Made by a program: the position numbers and the translations under genes. Below are positions 6,999 through 16,110 of a stretch of DNA of 64,000 nt, piece after piece; the first letter of the stretch is position 1, and each line of letters starts with the position of its first letter. The notes under the pieces are model-generated. The model had not been told where the DNA came from and did no database searches. It saw only the letters and a program-made list of their open reading frames with translations. The stretch comes from Fretibacterium sp. OH1220_COT-178 (GTDB lineage: Bacteria; Synergistota; Synergistia; Synergistales; Aminobacteriaceae): positions 1 to 64,000 of the forward strand of contig NZ_RQYL01000013.1 of assembly GCF_003860125.1 (NCBI RefSeq). The letters run 5' to 3'.

Positions 6999-8048
6999 GT
7001 GAACGAAAAGGAAAGGCTCCTCGGGGTGCTCCGCGGCGATCCCATCCGTGAGGTGCCCTGCATCTGTCCCGGCGGCATGATGAACGCCATCGTCGTCGGC
7101 CTGATGGACCGGTGCGGGATCGCCTGGCCGGAGGCCCACACGGATCCGGTCAAGATGGCCGAGCTCGCCAGGGCCGTGTACGACCACGACATGTTCGAGA
7201 ACTACGGGGTGCCCTTCTGCATGACCGTGGAGGCCGAGGCGATGGGGGCCCCGGTCGACATGGGGAACAGGGAATGCGAGCCTCACGTGACGGACTACGT
7301 CCTGAGCTCGGTGGACCGCTGGGAGGATCTGGCCGATCCCGACCCGTACCGCGGGCGTCCCGGGGTCGTCATACGGGCCATCGAGGAGCTCCGGAGGACG
7401 GGAAGGGACGAGGTCCCCATCATCGGCAACCTGACGGGCCCCCTCAGCCTGGCGACGTCCCTGGTGGATCCCATCGATTTCTACAAATCCCTGCGGCGTA
7501 AAAACGAACAGGCCCACGCCCTGATGCGGAAAGTGACCCACACGCTGATCCGCTTCGGAGTCGCCCAGACGGCGGCCGGAGCGGACGTCCTGGCCATCTC
7601 CGACCCCAGCGGCACGGGCGAGATCCTCGGTGCGCGCTATTTCGAGGAGTTCGCCGTCCGATACCTCAACGAGCTGATCCGCGGCGTGCGCCGGGTCTTC
7701 CCCGAACTCCGCTTCATCGTCCACATCTGCGGCAGGATGAAGAACGTGTTCGGCGAGCTGCGGGCGGTGGAGGCCAACGCCTTCAGCTTCGATGCGATGG
7801 TGAACCTGCGCGAGGCGCGAAAGCAGCTGGCGCCCCGCAAGGTCATGGGCAACGTCAGCTCCTTCGGCCTGGTCTTCGCCTCCGGGGAGAGGGCCGAGGC
7901 CATGGCCCGAGCCGCCATCAACATGGGCTCGGACATTCTGGCGCCGGCCTGCGGCCTGGGTACGCAGTCGGACATCCGCTCCGTGCAGGGCCTCCTGAGG
8001 GCGGCCAGACGGAACCGGGAGGAGGCCCCCCTTTCATGCACGCCCTGA
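6999..8048 (+). CDS. UroD-fold corrinoid methyltransferase (MtaA/MtbA type)
   Basis: A 349-residue protein of the uroporphyrinogen-decarboxylase fold used by MtaA/MtbA/CmuA methyltransferases. The zinc site common to the methyltransferase branch is present: His242-x-Cys244 (VHICG) and Cys318 in PACGLG. It should move a methyl group to or from the cob(I)alamin of the adjacent corrinoid protein, with a thiol such as coenzyme M or an unknown acceptor as partner. The start is GTG 6999 with GGAAGGAGGG at 6983-6992. Its 3' end overlaps the next gene by 13 bases. Whether it is the substrate-side or acceptor-side enzyme cannot be told. Confidence 0.85.
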   Translation: MNEKERLLGVLRGDPIREVPCICPGGMMNAIVVGLMDRCGIAWPEAHTDPVKMAELARAVYDHDMFENYGVPFCMTVEAEAMGAPVDMGNRECEPHVTDYVLSSVDRWEDLADPDPYRGRPGVVIRAIEELRRTGRDEVPIIGNLTGPLSLATSLVDPIDFYKSLRRKNEQAHALMRKVTHTLIRFGVAQTAAGADVLAISDPSGTGEILGARYFEEFAVRYLNELIRGVRRVFPELRFIVHICGRMKNVFGELRAVEANAFSFDAMVNLREARKQLAPRKVMGNVSSFGLVFASGERAEAMARAAINMGSDILAPACGLGTQSDIRSVQGLLRAARRNREEAPLSCTP

Positions 8049-9820
8049 AGGTCCCGGCCAGGGGGCTTTCCCTCCCCCTGGCGCCGGGCGTGGATCTCCT
8101 GACGGCCCTGCGGTCCGCAGGACTTCGGGTCAACGCGGCCTGCGGGGGGCGGAGGACGTGCGGCAAGTGCAAGGTCCGCATACTCGACGGGACGGTCGAC
8201 CCCGCGAGCGGGGAGGAGCGGCGCTTTCTCTCCGAGGAGGAGCTGAGCGGCGGCGTACGCCTGGCCTGCTTCGTCCGCCCGAGGGGGGACGTCAGCGTCC
8301 TGCTCCCCGACGCGGAGGAAAGGGGACACCCGATCCTGACGGACGGCTTCGTCCCCGACTTCGCCTTCGACCCGCCCCTGCGGCGGGAGACCGTCGCCGT
8401 GAACGCCCCCACCCTCGAGGCCCCGCTCTCCCTGGACGAGCGCCTGGCCCAGGCGGCAGGACTGAGGACGATACCGATCGCCACCCTGAGGCGACTCCCC
8501 TCCGAGGGGACCCGGTTCTCCATTCTGACCCACGATGGGGAGTTTCTGACGGCGGAGCCCGAGGTCGGCGAAGGCCTCTTTGCCGCGGCGGTGGACATCG
8601 GGACGACCACGGTCGTCGCGTCGCTCATCGATATGGATACGGGGCTCGAGCTGGGCAGCGCCTCGGCCGTCAATCCGCAGAAGGAACATGGGCAGGACGT
8701 TCTGACCCGGATCACCTGGGTTCAGGAGACGGGGTCGGAGGGCGTCGACCGGATGCGGGGCGAGATCGTCCTGGCCGTCGAGGAACTGATCCTGTCCCTC
8801 TGCGAAGCCCGATCGATCCCGCCCCGACGGGTGCTCCAGCTCAACGTGGGGGCGAACGCGACCATGACCCACCTCCTGCTCGGCGTGGATCCCCGCTCGA
8901 TCGGCTGCTCCCCCTACGCGCCCCGGCTGAGGCACGAGCGGTACGAACGGGCCTCGGATCTGGGGTTCACACGCATCCATCCGGAGGCCCGGGTATTCTG
9001 CCTTCCGCAGATATCCTCCTTCGTCGGAGGGGATATCGTCGCCGGCATCGTCACGGCGGACCTGACGGGGACGCAGGACAACGTCCTGTTCATCGACATC
9101 GGGACGAACGGCGAGATGGTCCTCTCCCGAAGGGGGGAGCTCTTCGCCGCCTCCTGCGCGGCAGGGCCGGCCCTCGAGGGGATGAACATCGGCTGCGGGA
9201 TGCGCGCCCAGGAGGGGGCCGTCGAGGAGGCGTCCCTGCGGGAGGGCCGTCTGTCCCTGGCCACGATCGGGGGAAGGCCGCCTCTCGGCCTCTGCGGCAG
9301 CGGAATTCTGGCCGTCGTTCGGGAGTTCCTCTCGGCGGGCTTGATCACGAAGCGGGGCAACATCGCCCGCGCGGAGGAGGTGAGCGCGGAGCTGCGCCCG
9401 TTCATCGGGGAGGCGGGAGGGAAAAGGAGCCTTGTGCTGTGCGGCGGCCCCCCTTCCCTGTTCCTGACCCAGAGGGACGTGAGGCAGATCCAGCTGGCCA
9501 AGGGCGCCATCCTCTCCGGGGCCCTCTGCCTGGTCTCCGCCGCGGGACTGGCGCCGGACGAGGTGGACCGGGTCGTGATCGCCGGACAGTTCGGAAAGCA
9601 CCTGGCCCCGGAAAGCCTGGTCGGCGCAGGGCTGCTCCCAGCCTCCTTCGGGGATCGGATCCATTACATCGGAAATTCCAGCAAGACGGGAGCCTATCTT
9701 TCCCTGGTGTCCCGCGAGCATTACCACAGGATGACCCACGGCATCCGCCAGGTCCGCTACATCGAGTTGAGCACGCTCCCGGGCTACGACAGAACCTTTG
9801 CCGAAGCGCTGCTCTTTTGA
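8036..9820 (+). CDS. RACo/RamA-like ASKHA reductive activator of corrinoid proteins
   Basis: A 594-residue ATP-dependent activator that reduces an inactive cob(II)alamin back to the methyl-accepting cob(I) state. The N-terminal ferredoxin-like domain has the plant-type [2Fe-2S] pattern: Cys36, Cys42, Cys45 and Cys78 (AACGGRRTCGKC). The remainder is the ASKHA-like ATPase region, with AVDIGTTTVVAS near 190 and FIDIGTNGEMVL near 360. The start overlaps the preceding methyltransferase gene, which argues for coupled translation. Corrinoid methyl-transfer systems normally need such an activator, so this strongly supports the operon being a functioning methyl-transfer pathway. Confidence 0.92.
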   Translation: MHALKVPARGLSLPLAPGVDLLTALRSAGLRVNAACGGRRTCGKCKVRILDGTVDPASGEERRFLSEEELSGGVRLACFVRPRGDVSVLLPDAEERGHPILTDGFVPDFAFDPPLRRETVAVNAPTLEAPLSLDERLAQAAGLRTIPIATLRRLPSEGTRFSILTHDGEFLTAEPEVGEGLFAAAVDIGTTTVVASLIDMDTGLELGSASAVNPQKEHGQDVLTRITWVQETGSEGVDRMRGEIVLAVEELILSLCEARSIPPRRVLQLNVGANATMTHLLLGVDPRSIGCSPYAPRLRHERYERASDLGFTRIHPEARVFCLPQISSFVGGDIVAGIVTADLTGTQDNVLFIDIGTNGEMVLSRRGELFAASCAAGPALEGMNIGCGMRAQEGAVEEASLREGRLSLATIGGRPPLGLCGSGILAVVREFLSAGLITKRGNIARAEEVSAELRPFIGEAGGKRSLVLCGGPPSLFLTQRDVRQIQLAKGAILSGALCLVSAAGLAPDEVDRVVIAGQFGKHLAPESLVGAGLLPASFGDRIHYIGNSSKTGAYLSLVSREHYHRMTHGIRQVRYIELSTLPGYDRTFAEALLF

Positions 9821-9863
9821 GCGGGCGAACGGCCCGCATCGCCGGGCGGAGCGGTTCGCCCGC
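9821..9863 (+). other. Hairpin directly after the activator gene
   Basis: GCGGGCGAAC (9821-9830) and GTTCGCCCGC (9854-9863) form a perfect 10-bp stem with a 23-base GC-rich loop right after the stop codon. No T-run follows; a second small hairpin (GGCGG/CCGCC) lies 10 bases on. It may tune expression of the two downstream methyltransferase-like genes. Confidence 0.5.
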
Positions 9864-9935
9864 ATCGAAGGCAAGGCGGCTTCGTCCGCCGAGCCGGGGA
9901 GATCCGCCCGGCAGGAAACCGAGGGAGGGAGGATC

Positions 9936-10733
9936 GTGAAGATCTATCAATGCAAGTCTGAGGACGCGCCGAGCCTCGTCCCCGTCCTGCGGGAGCTGGG
10001 GCTGAGCTACGAGGAGACCCTGAGGGAGGGAGTGGCCCTCGCGCGTGCGGCGGAGGGGGTGCGGGAGAAAAACGGCATGGTCCACACCATGCTCCCCCTC
10101 TCGGAATGCCTGATGTCGGCCTGCCTGGGGGCCTCCATCAAATGGGATCCGGAGTACGGGGACCGCGTGGCCAGAGAGGCCTTCTCCGACTGGGAGGAGG
10201 CCGAGGCCTTCCGGTCAGAATCCATTGGTCGGGCCCTCCTGGAGCCCCTCTTCGAGGCCGTCGGGATGCTGAAGGAAAAGGGCGCCAGGATCGTCGTCGG
10301 CGTGACGGGGCCCATCTCCCTGCTCTCGGCCCTCCTTCCGACGGAGGAGGTCTATCGGGCCATGGCGAAGCGGAAGGATCCCTTCCCCAGGCTTTTAGGG
10401 ATCGTCGAGGACTTCGTCGCGGAGCACATCGAGCGGTTGGACGCACTCGGACCGGAGCTGATCTACCTCGTCGACACCCTCGGGTCCCTGGACCTCGTGG
10501 GGCCCCGTCTGTTCCGGCAGGTTTCCGGCCCCAGCTACCTGCGCGTGCTCAGACGGGCGGAGGCCCTGGCGACGCCCATCTACATGTGCCCCAAGAACAT
10601 GACGTCGCTCTTCTCCGTGGGGTTCCTGGAGAAGGCCGAGGACGGGAATCTTTGTGCGGGGCCATGCCTGGCCCGGAGGTTCCGGGAGCTGCGCTGGGGG
10701 AGGTGCCGCCTCGCCCCGGAGGCTCCGGCGTAG
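9936..10733 (+). CDS. Short UroD-fold protein, methyltransferase-like
   Basis: A 265-residue protein with weak but recognisable similarity to the UroD/MtaA fold, such as VGVTGPISLLSALLP near 121-135. It is about 80 residues shorter than its two neighbours. The expected His-x-Cys zinc motif is replaced by Tyr-Met-Cys (Cys218), with further cysteines at 240 and 244. It may be a degenerate or accessory subunit rather than a full enzyme. GTG 9936 is chosen because a GAGGGAGG site precedes it. It lies within the corrinoid operon, so a role in methyl transfer is likely but unproven. Confidence 0.6.
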   Translation: MKIYQCKSEDAPSLVPVLRELGLSYEETLREGVALARAAEGVREKNGMVHTMLPLSECLMSACLGASIKWDPEYGDRVAREAFSDWEEAEAFRSESIGRALLEPLFEAVGMLKEKGARIVVGVTGPISLLSALLPTEEVYRAMAKRKDPFPRLLGIVEDFVAEHIERLDALGPELIYLVDTLGSLDLVGPRLFRQVSGPSYLRVLRRAEALATPIYMCPKNMTSLFSVGFLEKAEDGNLCAGPCLARRFRELRWGRCRLAPEAPA

Positions 10734-10828
10734 CCTTTCGGGCTCCGGATCGTCGGCCGAGGACGCCGAAACGGCGTCCGGGCATCATGATTTTCCAGTT
10801 TTTCAATACGGAAAGGAGCGTTCGGGAC

Positions 10829-11911
10829 ATGAGCCATGCGGCAAAAAAAGGAACGGGGCCTGCGGCGGACCGGCAGGAACGCCTCAAGGTCTCCATCTCG
10901 CTGTGCGAGACGGCCATCACCCTCTTCGGCGTGAACACGAGGGATTACTATTTCAACGCCGACACCATGGCCGACGTCGAGGCGCGGTTCTGGGAGCGGT
11001 TCCGGCCGGACGGCGCGAGCATCTCCATCACGCTGCGCGGCATGGCGGAGGCCATGGGTTCCGTCATATCCTACAAGAACCACTGCATCCCCAGCGTGGA
11101 GACGCCGCGGGTCCGGGAACCCAAGGACGTCTACGGGCTCAGGGTCCCCGATCCCCTCAAGGACGGCCGTCTGCCCATCGTGCTGAACGCCCTCGTCAAG
11201 CTCCGGAAGAGGCTGGACGGAAAAATTGCCGTGGGCGCCGGAATGGCCGGCCCGGTGAGTGTCGCCATCGCCGTCTGCGGCGCGGAGAACTTCCTGCGCT
11301 GGACGCGCCGCCACCCCGAGGAGATCAAGCACATGATGGACATCATCGTGGAGGGGAACAATCGGTACATCGACGAGCTCGGCAAGCGCGGGATCGTCGG
11401 GCTCTCCTTCTCGGACCCCGTGGCCTCGACGGACCTGTTGGGCTACAAGCAGTTCCTCGAGTTCTCCCTCCCCTACTTCACGGCCAACGTGCGGTACGGC
11501 GGCAAGGTCCTGGGAAAGAATCCCGGCACCCACATCTGCGGACACACCAAGGGGATCTGGAAGGACATCGTGGGGTCCGGGGTTTCGAGCTTCAGCATCG
11601 ACAACGTGGAGGACCTGGCCGAGGCCAAGGAGATCATGGGGGACAGCATCGCCATCATCGGGAACGTGCCTCCGGTCAACGTCCTGAACCTGGGCGGGGA
11701 GGAGGATATCAGGAGATCCGTCGCGGAGTGCATCCTGAAGGGACACGACTCCCCCAAGGGCTACGCCCTGGGATCCGGCTGCCAGGTGCCCCTTTTCACC
11801 CCCGCGGAGAACATCGACGCCTACATCCGGTGGGGAAAGGAGTTGGGTAAATTGCCCATCGACGTCGAAAGGCTGCAGCGCATCGCGGCCGGCGAGGAGG
11901 GCGCCGCGTGA
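10829..11911 (+). CDS. UroD-fold corrinoid methyltransferase
   Basis: A 360-residue MtaA/MtbA-type methyltransferase. The zinc ligands are visible in THICGHT (His235, Cys237, with His239 nearby) and Cys318 in GSGCQVP. The fold signature GAGMAGPVSVA lies near 136-146. ATG 10829 follows AAAGGAG by ten bases; an in-frame ATG at 10788 lacks one. This is the last gene of the operon that begins with the TRAP transporter. With no MttB, MtmB or MtaB homologue in the window, one of the UroD-like proteins probably acts on the methylated substrate itself. Confidence 0.82.
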   Translation: MSHAAKKGTGPAADRQERLKVSISLCETAITLFGVNTRDYYFNADTMADVEARFWERFRPDGASISITLRGMAEAMGSVISYKNHCIPSVETPRVREPKDVYGLRVPDPLKDGRLPIVLNALVKLRKRLDGKIAVGAGMAGPVSVAIAVCGAENFLRWTRRHPEEIKHMMDIIVEGNNRYIDELGKRGIVGLSFSDPVASTDLLGYKQFLEFSLPYFTANVRYGGKVLGKNPGTHICGHTKGIWKDIVGSGVSSFSIDNVEDLAEAKEIMGDSIAIIGNVPPVNVLNLGGEEDIRRSVAECILKGHDSPKGYALGSGCQVPLFTPAENIDAYIRWGKELGKLPIDVERLQRIAAGEEGAA

Positions 11912-12043: not shown

Positions 12044-13672
12044 TCAAATTTCGTCCAGAAGCTGCTGGATGCTCTTCTTTCCGAAAATCACCTTGTCGTC
12101 GTCGACCACGAGGCAAGGGACGCTCATCACGTTATACCGTTCCTTCAGCGCTCCAAAGTGGTTGATGTCGTACACGTCCGCCGTCACCAACGGATTCAGC
12201 GACGCAATCTGCTGGGCGGCTGCAACCAGCTCCGGACACATCGTACAGGAGAGGGAGATCAGGATTTTCATATCGATCTTTCTGTCGATCCCCCGAACCC
12301 GCCCCCTCGTCTCCTCGTCCAGGGGCTGCCCCGGTCCGGAGGCATTGTAGAGCCCCAGCATGAAGGAGGTGAATTCGTGCCCGCCGGGCACGCCGTGAAA
12401 GGCCAGGCCCGTCTCCGTACCATCCTCCCTCAAAATCCTGACACAGGGCAGCTCCGAGGATGCCATCCCCTCGCCCGTCGACACGGTCAGCTTGTCCGTC
12501 AGTTGCGCCAGCTCCTCCATATAATTCCGGAGCTCGTGCGAGACGGGCCGGGAATCGAGGTAGAGCTTCAGGATCAAGTTCCGCTCCATCCGGGAAAAGA
12601 TGACGTCCATCTGCTGACGCATATCCGGAGAGAACAGGCCGCCTGCCGAAGGCTGAGGGGCCTCGCCCTTCGCCTCCGGGGCCGGAGCGGCCTCCCTGCG
12701 GACCGGCTTGAGCGGGTGGATGCCCGTCTTGGCCTGCATCGCCGCCGCATACCGCTCCAGCTCCGTCGCCGCCGTGGCCCCATCGCCAACGGCGGTAACG
12801 ACCTGCCGCAGGTTTTTCACGCAGACGTCCCCCGCCGCGTAGACGCCGTCCAGACCGGTCTTCTGGTTGCGGTCGGTGACGACATAGCCCTGCGGGTCGA
12901 GCTCCACTTTGCCCTTGACCAGCTCCGTGGCCGGCACATAACCGGCGAACACGAACACGCCAAAGGTGTCGTTCCCCTCCGTCGAGAACACGGTCTCCTC
13001 TCCGGTCCGGGAGTTCCTGTAGCGGATCCTGCGAAGGGCGGTGTCGCCCGACACCTCCTCCACCTGCGTGTTCGTCAGCACCGTAATCCGGGGATGGTCC
13101 CGCGCCTCCTGTGCCGTGGCCCCCGCGCAGGAAAAGTCGTTCCCGCGGATCAGCACCGTCACATGGCTGGCGTATCGGGTCAGGAAAACGCTCTCCTCCG
13201 CCGCGGCAAAGCCGCCGCCGACGACAAAAACCTCCTTGCCCGTGAAAAACTCGCCGTCGCACGTGGCGCAATAGGCCACGCCGCGGCCGCGGAATTCCGC
13301 CTCGCCGGGGAAGCCGAGCATCCGCGGATGGGCGCCGGTCGCGATCAGCACGCCGAAACAGGAGTAGACGCCCCGATCCGTATGGACCTTTTTGACATCC
13401 CCATCCAACTCCAGGCCCACGACCTCCGCCATCAGGAACTCGGCGCCGAAGTTCTCCGCCTGAACGCGCATGGCCTCGGTCAAGCTTTTTCCATCCGCCC
13501 GCCCGACCCCGGGGTAGTTCACGACCTCGGAGGTGATCGTAATCTGACCGCCGAAGGCCTCCTTTTCAACGATCAGGACACGGTAACAGGCACGGGCGAG
13601 GTAGAGGCCTGCCGTCAAACCGGCAGGCCCCCCTCCCACTACAACGACATCATAAAAGTTCCGGTCGTCCAT
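12044..13672 (-). CDS. Thioredoxin-reductase-like flavoprotein with C-terminal AhpF-NTD-like module
   Basis: A 542-residue NAD(P)H-dependent disulfide reductase expected to recycle the peroxiredoxin encoded just upstream. The FAD site VVVGGGPAGLTAG is at 9-22 and the redox pair C135-A-T-C138 is in the reductase half. After an Ala/Pro/Glu-rich linker (about 320-350) comes a double thioredoxin-fold part ending with the pair C476-T-M-C479. AhpF carries that module at its N-terminus; here it is at the C-terminus. ATG 13672 shares one base with the AhpC stop (TGATG), so the two are translationally coupled. The role as AhpC reductase is inferred from this pairing. Confidence 0.85.
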   Translation of the reverse strand: MDDRNFYDVVVVGGGPAGLTAGLYLARACYRVLIVEKEAFGGQITITSEVVNYPGVGRADGKSLTEAMRVQAENFGAEFLMAEVVGLELDGDVKKVHTDRGVYSCFGVLIATGAHPRMLGFPGEAEFRGRGVAYCATCDGEFFTGKEVFVVGGGFAAAEESVFLTRYASHVTVLIRGNDFSCAGATAQEARDHPRITVLTNTQVEEVSGDTALRRIRYRNSRTGEETVFSTEGNDTFGVFVFAGYVPATELVKGKVELDPQGYVVTDRNQKTGLDGVYAAGDVCVKNLRQVVTAVGDGATAATELERYAAAMQAKTGIHPLKPVRREAAPAPEAKGEAPQPSAGGLFSPDMRQQMDVIFSRMERNLILKLYLDSRPVSHELRNYMEELAQLTDKLTVSTGEGMASSELPCVRILREDGTETGLAFHGVPGGHEFTSFMLGLYNASGPGQPLDEETRGRVRGIDRKIDMKILISLSCTMCPELVAAAQQIASLNPLVTADVYDINHFGALKERYNVMSVPCLVVDDDKVIFGKKSIQQLLDEI

Positions 13673-14235
13673 CAGAGCTTGCCAACCAGATCGAGGCTGG
13701 GCTTCAAGGTATCCGCACCGGGCTGCCACTTGGCCGGGCAGACCTGATCCCCATGCTGGGCCACAAACTGGCAGGCCTGCAGGCGGCGGAACAGCTCATC
13801 GACATTACGGCCCACGTTGCCGGCATTGACCTCGTACACCACGATCTTTCCATCAGGATTGACGATAAAGCTGCCGCGCTCCGCCAGGCCAACCTCCTCG
13901 ATCAGCACGTTGAAGTCCCTGCTCAGCGCGTGGGTGGGGTCCGCCAGCATCGGATAGGAGATCTTGCCGATGCGCTCGGACCCGTCATGCCAGGCTTTAT
14001 GGACAAAATGGGTGTCCGTGGAAACGGAGTAGACCTCGCAGCCCGCCTTCTTGAAATCGGCGTACTTGTTCTGAAGGTCCTCGAGCTCCGTGGGGCAGAC
14101 GAAGGTAAAGTCCGCAGGGTAGAAGAAGAAAACGCTCCACTTACCCAGGATATCCGCCTTCGTCACGGTCTTGAACTCACCGTTGTGGTAGGCCTGAACC
14201 TTAAAATCGCTCACTTCTTTGTTGATCATGGACAT
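13672..14235 (-). CDS. ahpC: Alkyl hydroperoxide reductase subunit C (2-Cys peroxiredoxin)
   Basis: A 187-residue typical 2-Cys peroxiredoxin that reduces peroxides. The peroxidatic Cys47 is in FTFVCPTEL and the resolving Cys166 in QVCPAKW, both at family positions. A strong AGGAGG precedes the ATG. The gene overlaps the flavoprotein gene downstream and follows a PerR-like regulator gene on the same strand, so the set behaves as a peroxide-response unit. It is a useful Cys-containing comparison for the selenocysteine peroxiredoxin at 15012-15626. Confidence 0.95.
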   Translation of the reverse strand: MSMINKEVSDFKVQAYHNGEFKTVTKADILGKWSVFFFYPADFTFVCPTELEDLQNKYADFKKAGCEVYSVSTDTHFVHKAWHDGSERIGKISYPMLADPTHALSRDFNVLIEEVGLAERGSFIVNPDGKIVVYEVNAGNVGRNVDELFRRLQACQFVAQHGDQVCPAKWQPGADTLKPSLDLVGKL

Positions 14236-14337: not shown

Positions 14338-14721
14338 TCACTGCTTCCGTTCCGTGGGGCATGCCCTTCCCCGGCACTCCTTGCAGACATAGGACAGTTT
14401 CAAATCGTAAGATTCGATATCCAGGCCGGTCTCCGCCTTCAGTTGCTCCGTGAGGTCGCCCAGGAAGACGTCCTGGATCCTCCCGCAACACCGGCAAAGC
14501 AGGTGATCGTGCCGCGAATTGCGGTCGTAACGGTCCGGCTGGCCCTCGACGCTCACCCTTCGAATCAGCCCCTGTGCGGAGAGCGCGTTGAGGTTGTTGT
14601 AGATTGTGGCCATGACGATAGAGGAGTGCTGTTTTTTCATCTCGAGGAAAATCCGCTCCGCGGTCATGTGCGTACCGGCCCTGTTCACGAGCTCCAAAAT
14701 ACCGTTGCCGTACCTGCCCAT
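14338..14721 (-). CDS. Fur-family regulator, PerR-like
   Basis: A 127-residue winged-helix metalloregulator. The helix-turn-helix region includes MATIYNNLNALSAQGLIRRV, and the structural zinc site has the two CxxC-type motifs CRCC and CKEC plus a later Cys. Position between two peroxiredoxin genes favours PerR (peroxide sensing) over Fur (iron). ATG 14721 is used; the frame opens at a TTG nine bases earlier. Its own promoter overlaps an AT-rich partial palindrome, consistent with autorepression. A GGGCGGG/CCCGCCC hairpin in the gap before ahpC may attenuate read-through. Confidence 0.85.
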   Translation of the reverse strand: MGRYGNGILELVNRAGTHMTAERIFLEMKKQHSSIVMATIYNNLNALSAQGLIRRVSVEGQPDRYDRNSRHDHLLCRCCGRIQDVFLGDLTEQLKAETGLDIESYDLKLSYVCKECRGRACPTERKQ

Positions 14722-14735
14722 AGCCCCCAAAATAG

Positions 14736-14779
14736 AATTGATTTAAATCTAATTTACCCTATAGATATCAATTCGTCAA
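14736..14779 (-). promoter_or_regulatory. Promoter and likely Fur/PerR-type operator
   Basis: Read on the minus strand, TTGACG (14779-14774), a 17-base spacer and TAAATT (14756-14751) form a promoter for the regulator gene. The palindrome GATTTAAATC (14740-14749), set in AATT-flanked AT-rich sequence, covers the expected start point. It is not a perfect match to the Per or Fur box consensus as I know them. Confidence 0.55.
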
Positions 14780-15011: not shown

Positions 15012-15626
15012 CTACTTCTTGAGGGTTCTCCAGATCTTACCCGAATTTTCATAGCTGGGGTCCAGGGTCTCCCTACCGGGAGTCCAGGACGCGGGGACGA
15101 CCTTGCCCGTCTTGGCGTGCTCCTGAAGCGCCTGAATGCCGCGTATGATCTCGTCGGCGTTACGCCCCAGAGGAGGGACGTTGACGGACAGCCAGTTGAC
15201 GACTCCGTCGGGGTCGATGACCACGGTCGCACGGATGTCCACTCCGGCGGCCGGGACGTAGGCTCCATAAACATCGCCCAAGACCCCGCCCGGGTCCGTG
15301 AGCATGGGGAAGGGAACGCAATCCTTCATGCAGTCGATATTGCAGAGTTCGAAATCGTGCCAGTTCTTGTGAACAAACTTACTGTCCGTGCTGATCAGCA
15401 GGACCTGAACGCCCATCGCCTCGAAATCCTTTGCCCGCTCTGCCAGAGCGGTCAGCTCCGTGGGTCAAACGTAGGTGAAATCCCCCGGATAGAAAAAGAG
15501 CAAAACCCACTTCTTGGCGTAATCCGAAAGTCTGAAAGTGTCAAAAGCCTTTTTGAAATACCCCTCGGCCGTGAAGTCCGGCGCCTTCTCGCCAACCCGG
15601 ACCCTGTTGCTGCAACAACCTTCCAT
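15012..15626 (-). CDS. prxU: Selenocysteine-containing peroxiredoxin (in-frame UGA)
   Basis: A 204-residue peroxiredoxin if the in-frame TGA at 15467-15465 is read as selenocysteine (residue 54). The TGA sits exactly where AhpC has its peroxidatic Cys: FTYV-U-PTEL here, FTFVCPTEL in the Cys paralogue 1.3 kb away. Homology continues on both sides, so this is not a pseudogene stop. ATG 15626 has a perfect AGGAGG. A SECIS-like hairpin starts 13 bases after the TGA. The usual C-terminal resolving Cys is absent (KVVPASW, where AhpC has QVCPAKW); other cysteines at 4, 5, 95, 99 and 103 could serve. A gene caller that treats TGA as stop would report only the 134-residue fragment from 15416. Confidence 0.88.
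15435..15467 (-). promoter_or_regulatory. UGA codon plus bacterial SECIS-like hairpin
   Basis: The UGA occupies 15467-15465. After 13 bases the minus strand reads CCGCTCT-GGC-AGAGCGG (15451-15435), a perfect 7-bp stem with a G-containing tight loop. Distance and loop G fit what SelB needs in bacterial selenoprotein mRNAs. Confidence 0.8.
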
Positions 15627-16110
15627 GACAACCCCTCCTTGAAATAAACACGAAGACCAAAATTACACTAAACTACTTGGTATTCTATCGCTCCCGCAAA
15701 ACACGGGGACCGTCAAAAATACCTAGTTCAAACCCACGAACGGATTACCTCAGGAAGCCTTCGACGACCTCGGACCATTGATCTAACAATATCCGTTCTG
15801 AACGTACTTCTTCCGCCCCTAGCGCTGGAGCCCCCCTCAGACCTTGACAAGGGATAAGACCCCAATTATTATTTGTTTGCTTAGAAAAACAATTTAATGG
15901 ATCGACAAATCTCTGCTGCTGTTTTTCAAGCTTTGTCGCTGTATTTTTGTTTTGCCTCGATGATTTTTGTTTCTCTAGCTTACCCAACGATGGGAGGAGG
16001 GAGTTTGCATCCTAAGTCGTTAGGTGGGCGGAGCAGTTATGGAGCCGAAATCTTCGGGCTCCGACATGACGCAGCGGATGCGCGGCATCCGGAAAGGAAG
16101 GATCGGCACA
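15627..16110. other. Intergenic region between divergent genes
   Basis: 484 bases, more AT-rich than the surroundings, lie between the divergently transcribed peroxiredoxin and surface-protein genes and should hold both promoters. I could not pick a convincing -35/-10 pair for either. A minus-strand open frame of 80 codons (15745-15987) has an unusual, polar, Gln/Asn/Lys-rich translation and no good ribosome site, so I do not call it a gene. Confidence 0.6.

Follow-up and report, generated by a model that had tools for sequence, protein, structure and literature searches.

Nature of the TGA in the peroxiredoxin gene

The window, by which we mean the whole stretch of 64,000 nucleotides analysed here, contains a peroxiredoxin gene, prxU, with a TGA in its reading frame. 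Is this TGA decoded as selenocysteine (Sec), and how would the resulting enzyme work? The following features define the gene:

15012..15626, minus strand: peroxiredoxin gene prxU; 204 aa with a single TGA in frame and a TAG stop (by translation)
15465..15467, minus strand: TGA codon 54, putative Sec at the peroxidatic position (alignment with homologues)
15627..15643, minus strand: Shine-Dalgarno region of prxU, TTCAAGGAGGGGTTGTC 5' of the ATG

When the TGA was read as U, the minus strand from 15626 to 15012 gave 204 residues with a single U and then TAG. In the alignment, every Cys homologue had its peroxidatic Cys at the place of codon 54, and the characterised PrxU had its TGA there. The original prediction, that a TGA stands in place of the peroxidatic Cys codon at 15467-15465, was therefore confirmed by both translation and alignment, and the motif comparison behind it (FTYV-stop-PTEL against FTFVCPTEL) was correct, as the AhpC encoded at 14235-13672 does carry FTFVCPTEL. 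The homology said to continue on both sides of the TGA was also found: prxU was 57% identical 5' of the TGA and 56% identical 3' of it, both to the Sec gene of genome G164 and to the Cys gene of G097, and frameshifts were absent. Because identity is equal on both flanks, the 15626-15012 frame is one gene. Its UGA stands in frame where a redox-active Cys is expected, with homology around it, which is the pattern used to recognise selenoproteins. The ribosome site, AGGAGG 7 nt upstream of the ATG, was found as predicted. Taken together, it is highly probable that prxU encodes a peroxiredoxin with Sec inserted at codon 54.

Family assignment and comparison with characterised PrxU

The prxU product has the Pfam domains AhpC-TSA and 1-cysPrx_C, and its AlphaFold model (pLDDT 92.4) predicted a fold whose top matches were Prx2, Prx4 and AhpC. 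The best NCBIfam model was PrxU (NF040737, E=2.2e-73), and the score of 246.8 bits was below the curated cut-off of 270 because the sequence sits in a divergent clade made up mostly of Cys proteins. The active site YPGDFTYVU has the PxxxTxxU motif of NF040737, and the protein has the matching peroxiredoxin fold; under this model the exact label of the window protein is "PrxU-like".

PrxU of Peptoclostridium (Eubacterium) acidaminophilum was characterised by Sohling et al. 2001 (doi 10.1515/BC.2001.123, as cited in PMC8533274). Its sequence, from record NZ_CP007453.1, was the top match among plasmid records. It aligned with the window protein at 49% identity with the TGA at the same site, so the comparison with known PrxU proteins favoured the prediction. 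Both proteins have Sec at the same residue and are without a resolving Cys (APSGW in PrxU), and both genes have a G-loop hairpin directly 3' of the UGA. The Peptoclostridium hairpin has an AGUU loop at 17 nt, that of the window gene a GGC loop at 20 nt; the Peptoclostridium active site is FTFVUATEV instead of FTYVUPTEL, and the tree placed the two in different clades. By all the sequence evidence, prxU thus appears to be a real selenocysteine peroxiredoxin that belongs to an already known kind, PrxU.

Sec peroxiredoxins in bacteria were already listed by a 2006 survey (PMC1794560). A scan of viral contigs for peroxiredoxin gave 35 loci with identities of 43% or less, and a contig-database scan with the window protein gave only two relatives, both Cys proteins from Synergistaceae MAGs, by which the window is assigned to the phylum Synergistota.

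Predicted selenocysteine decoding in the host genome

The host genome (G000; 2.86 Mb, 105 contigs, 99.96% complete) was searched for the Sec machinery. The family scores of selA, selB and selD were 546.7, 343.4 and 326.9 bits, respectively, all above the cut-offs, and selA and selB adjoin on contig C3. A tRNA-Sec was found at 74.3 bits (cut-off 47), and ARAGORN confirmed its anticodon UCA. All four genes that the original prediction had named as its check, selA, selB, selC (the tRNA-Sec) and selD, are therefore present. Two further genes of the host have a TGA of their own:

G000:C2:39932-40867: selD (L018), own TGA at the Sec site, TSGUAAKIG
G000:C16:40897-41334: grdA (L088), glycine reductase protein A, in-frame TGA in the CFVU motif

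The host selD is thus predicted to be a selenoprotein itself (TSGUAAKIG). With grdA, this predicts that the host decodes UGA as Sec at no fewer than two sites besides prxU. Both ahpC and grdA end with an ordinary TGA stop, which excludes a global change of the code. From the Sec machinery, the Sec sites of selD and grdA and these ordinary stops, it follows that UGA is the default stop and is read as Sec in context. The host also has three grdB copies (L089-L091), and together with grdA they point to fermentation of glycine or other amino acids.

Clades in Synergistota and the position of the hairpin

The TGA of prxU is followed by a hairpin:

15435..15451, minus strand: SECIS-type hairpin, stem CCGCUCU/AGAGCGG, loop GGC starting 20 nt after the UGA

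This 7-bp hairpin with a G-containing loop, starting 13 nt past the TGA, had been described in the original prediction and was found as described. Published constraints for bacterial SECIS elements require a stem-loop after the UGA, a G in loop positions 1-2 and a loop 16-37 nt from the UGA (PMC13188914), and the prxU hairpin, with its 7-bp stem and GGC loop at 20 nt, agrees with all of them. Taken alone, the hairpin is weak evidence and could have arisen from the codons by chance: its score was reached by 1018 of 20,000 synonymous-codon shuffles (~5%) and by 56 of the 1554 TGA triplets of the window (3.6%), the local fold around the TGA had an MFE z-score of only -1.1, and an Rfam search of the prxU region gave no match above chance. 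The hairpin carries weight because of the comparison with relatives and not because of these single-gene statistics.

For this comparison we used 188 Synergistota genomes and a match threshold of E <= 1e-40. The window protein had matches in 68 of the 188 genomes, and a TGA-bearing gene of PrxU type was present in 36. The earlier statement that PrxU is known in a few anaerobes thus understated its spread. The alignment and tree of the matches gave three groups, namely AhpC, clade B and clade A.

Clade B is a large Sec clade (FTFVUATEV and similar), from which 33 Sec genes were scored; the Cys protein of G017 also falls within it, on a long branch. Its Sec peroxiredoxins (e.g., L037 and L061) are about 44-53% identical to the window protein. 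They share with it the TGA at the same codon, the G-loop hairpin and, with the exception of G109, the lack of a C-terminal Cys. Clade A (FTYVxPTEL) contains 22 genes, of which only two, the window gene and that of G164, are Sec genes and 20 are Cys genes. These Cys orthologues (G093-G097 and family f8; e.g., L023, L025 and L052) include the closest Cys proteins, with up to 56% identity. They have the same active-site motif, FTYV-x-PTEL, but differ from the window gene in having Cys for Sec, no hairpin in register, and Cys180 (PACW).

A strong G-loop hairpin (score 16-24) was present in 35/35 scored Synergistota TGA genes and in none of the 27 Cys genes, whose scores were at most 15. The loop starts 17 nt after the UGA (GGUC, AGUU or GGUU) in all 33 scored Sec genes of clade B, unlike the window gene, and the same 17-nt register was found in Peptoclostridium and Chloroflexota genes. 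The 20-nt register with a GGC loop is common to the window gene and G164, the only Sec members of clade A. Their stems differ by two double compensatory changes, and in both genes all seven pairs still form; full 7/7 pairing is kept in 0/20 Cys members of the clade.

In the tree, each of the two clade A Sec genes branches basal to a Cys group. A history of a single Sec gain and three losses is as short as one of three gains and a single loss, at four changes each. Common Sec ancestry within clade A is favoured, because G000 and G164 share the hairpin register. In the phylum scan, both Sec genomes of clade A had selA, as did the four Cys genomes of f1. It was found in only 2 of the 14 Cys genomes of f8, the other 12 giving no match, a distribution consistent with f8 having lost the Sec trait when it swapped to Cys or later.

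Resolving cysteine and proposed catalytic cycle

The two kinds of clade A protein differ at a second site, near the C terminus:

15084..15095, minus strand: PASW near the C terminus (residues 178-181); neither 177 nor 180 is a resolving Cys

Position 180 is Cys (PACW) in 20/20 clade A Cys orthologues, and the Sec members have PASW (window protein) and PANW (G164) at this site. With V177 and S180, the window protein lacks the C-terminal resolving Cys (VCP) of typical 2-Cys peroxiredoxins (AhpC/Prx1). The Sec proteins of clade B and PrxU have TPSGW, APSGW or similar sequences without Cys, and Cys177 is present in the AhpCs and in G017, the Cys protein of clade B. Overall, a C-terminal Cys at 177 or 180 was found in 27/27 Cys proteins and was absent in 36/37 Sec proteins; the tree holds only three independent swaps, too few for significance (sign test p=0.25). 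We give about even credence to the proposal that the Sec-for-Cys swap goes with the C-terminal resolving Cys (180 in clade A, 177 in G017), separating 1-Sec from 2-Cys forms, and that the clade A hairpin is also shifted by about one codon against all other PrxU examined. The only Sec peroxiredoxin with Cys177 is that of G109 (L075), possibly an intermediate between the Sec and 2-Cys forms.

For the window protein, we propose that SelB delivers Sec-tRNA-Sec to UGA codon 54, guided by the hairpin directly downstream, and that the 204-residue product would be a peroxiredoxin that attacks peroxide with its Sec. In reducing H2O2 or organic hydroperoxides the selenolate would become a selenenic acid, and an external thioredoxin-like thiol protein would then recycle Sec54 directly. 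Such a 1-Sec cycle is probable, with some reserve, because the window protein is without the resolving Cys of its Cys orthologues. Our hypothesis is that a single Sec, served by an external thiol, suffices for the cycle, but that an enzyme with Cys depends on a resolving Cys as well. A partial literature search found no publication on such a coupling in peroxiredoxins. Glutathione peroxidases, a different family, offer only a parallel to the Sec/2-Cys contrast: their thioredoxin-specific Cys forms use a resolving Cys and their Sec forms need none (see PMC7763103).

The window protein has further cysteines at positions 4, 5, 95, 99 and 103. Residues 95-103 (15318-15344, CNIDCMKDC) contain a two-residue insertion seen in no other relative examined, and Cys95, Cys99 and Cys103 could bind metal or serve as resolving thiols. 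If UGA is recoded to Sec but one of these three resolves, the protein would not be a 1-Sec enzyme. Both Sec proteins of clade A carry Cys95, a position occupied by Ser or Ala in its Cys members, and the window protein offers Cys99, Cys103 and the N-terminal Cys4 and Cys5 in addition. However, Cys99 and Cys103 sit in the private insertion, and Sec members outside clade A have Ser95 and still no C-terminal Cys. The alpha-3 resolving Cys of Tpx and PrxQ, moreover, lies about five residues earlier in the sequence. We therefore consider a resolving role of these cysteines rather unlikely, though a serious rival to the 1-Sec cycle.

Error, pseudogene or true stop

A single base change converts TGT or TGC to TGA, and 20 of the 22 clade A genes are Cys genes, so that a Cys peroxiredoxin of the usual kind, interrupted by a nonsense mutation or miscalled at one base, must be weighed. 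Against such a pseudogene or sequencing/assembly error, conservation is equal on both sides of the TGA, the separate genome G164 shares both the position of the TGA and the register of the hairpin, and the Sec machinery is present in the host. A fresh error would also not explain why the window gene is without the C-terminal Cys of every Cys orthologue. We regard this explanation as very improbable. Even less credible is a real stop at the UGA, leaving a 53-residue fragment or a downstream part from the internal start ATG 15416: an ORF of 134 aa does begin there, and selenium supply governs how far bacteria read through UGA, but neither part would contain the complete active site and the whole frame is conserved as a single peroxiredoxin fold.

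Genes adjoining prxU

The features adjoining prxU are:

14738..14752, minus strand: palindromic operator-like site TTAGATTTAAATCAA 5' of the regulator (pattern search; putative function)
14338..14730, minus strand: Fur/PerR-family regulator (Pfam FUR E=2.2e-20; best NCBIfam models are PerR models, below their cut-offs)
13672..14235, minus strand: ahpC, Cys paralogue with canonical resolving Cys (NCBIfam AhpC TIGR03137, above cut-off)
12044..13672, minus strand: ahpF-like flavoprotein gene (NCBIfam TIGR03143 AhpF_homolog, above cut-off)

The order on the same strand is prxU, the Fur/PerR-type regulator, ahpC and the ahpF-like gene; the stop of ahpC and the start of the ahpF-like gene overlap in TGATG. 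The ahpF-like product has a thioredoxin-reductase domain and a thioredoxin-like domain, and this adjoining AhpF/thioredoxin-like system would be a candidate reductant of the prxU product. The site TTAGATTTAAATCAA is a near-perfect palindrome that occurs nowhere else in the window when up to three mismatches are allowed, and is probably the autoregulatory operator of the PerR-like gene. The pattern search of the window found no palindrome of this type upstream of prxU, and PerR control of prxU is therefore putative. Around the G164 gene and the Cys relative L052 the neighbours differ, so this gene order is not a general one. Further along, at 6999-11911, inspection of the translations by eye suggested a run of uroporphyrinogen-decarboxylase/MtaA-like methyltransferase genes, with a corrinoid-activation-type protein at 8036-9820 among them.

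The original prediction had also presented the Cys and Sec paralogues beside one PerR-like gene as a good natural pair. Both paralogues are there, but the pair is less well matched than this implies. AhpC shares with the prxU product the peroxiredoxin fold, with Cys at the equivalent position, but it is a distant paralogue (about 40% identity) with a canonical resolving Cys (VCPAKW), from a separate, ahpF-coupled subfamily. The Cys orthologues of G093-G097 and family f8 are the better natural controls.

Implications

Genes of the prxU type are split or truncated at the TGA by standard gene calling; here a full selenoenzyme is nearly certain. What is new beyond the known PrxU kind is the clade-specific register of the hairpin and, as a hypothesis, the linkage between Sec and the resolving Cys. 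Clade A supplies a case in which branches of a single gene family place the SECIS element differently. In its Sec and Cys orthologues, which share about 56% identity, the swap is accompanied by a second, linked difference in the resolving Cys, and with these natural proteins the requirements for an enzyme to drop or adopt selenium become testable.
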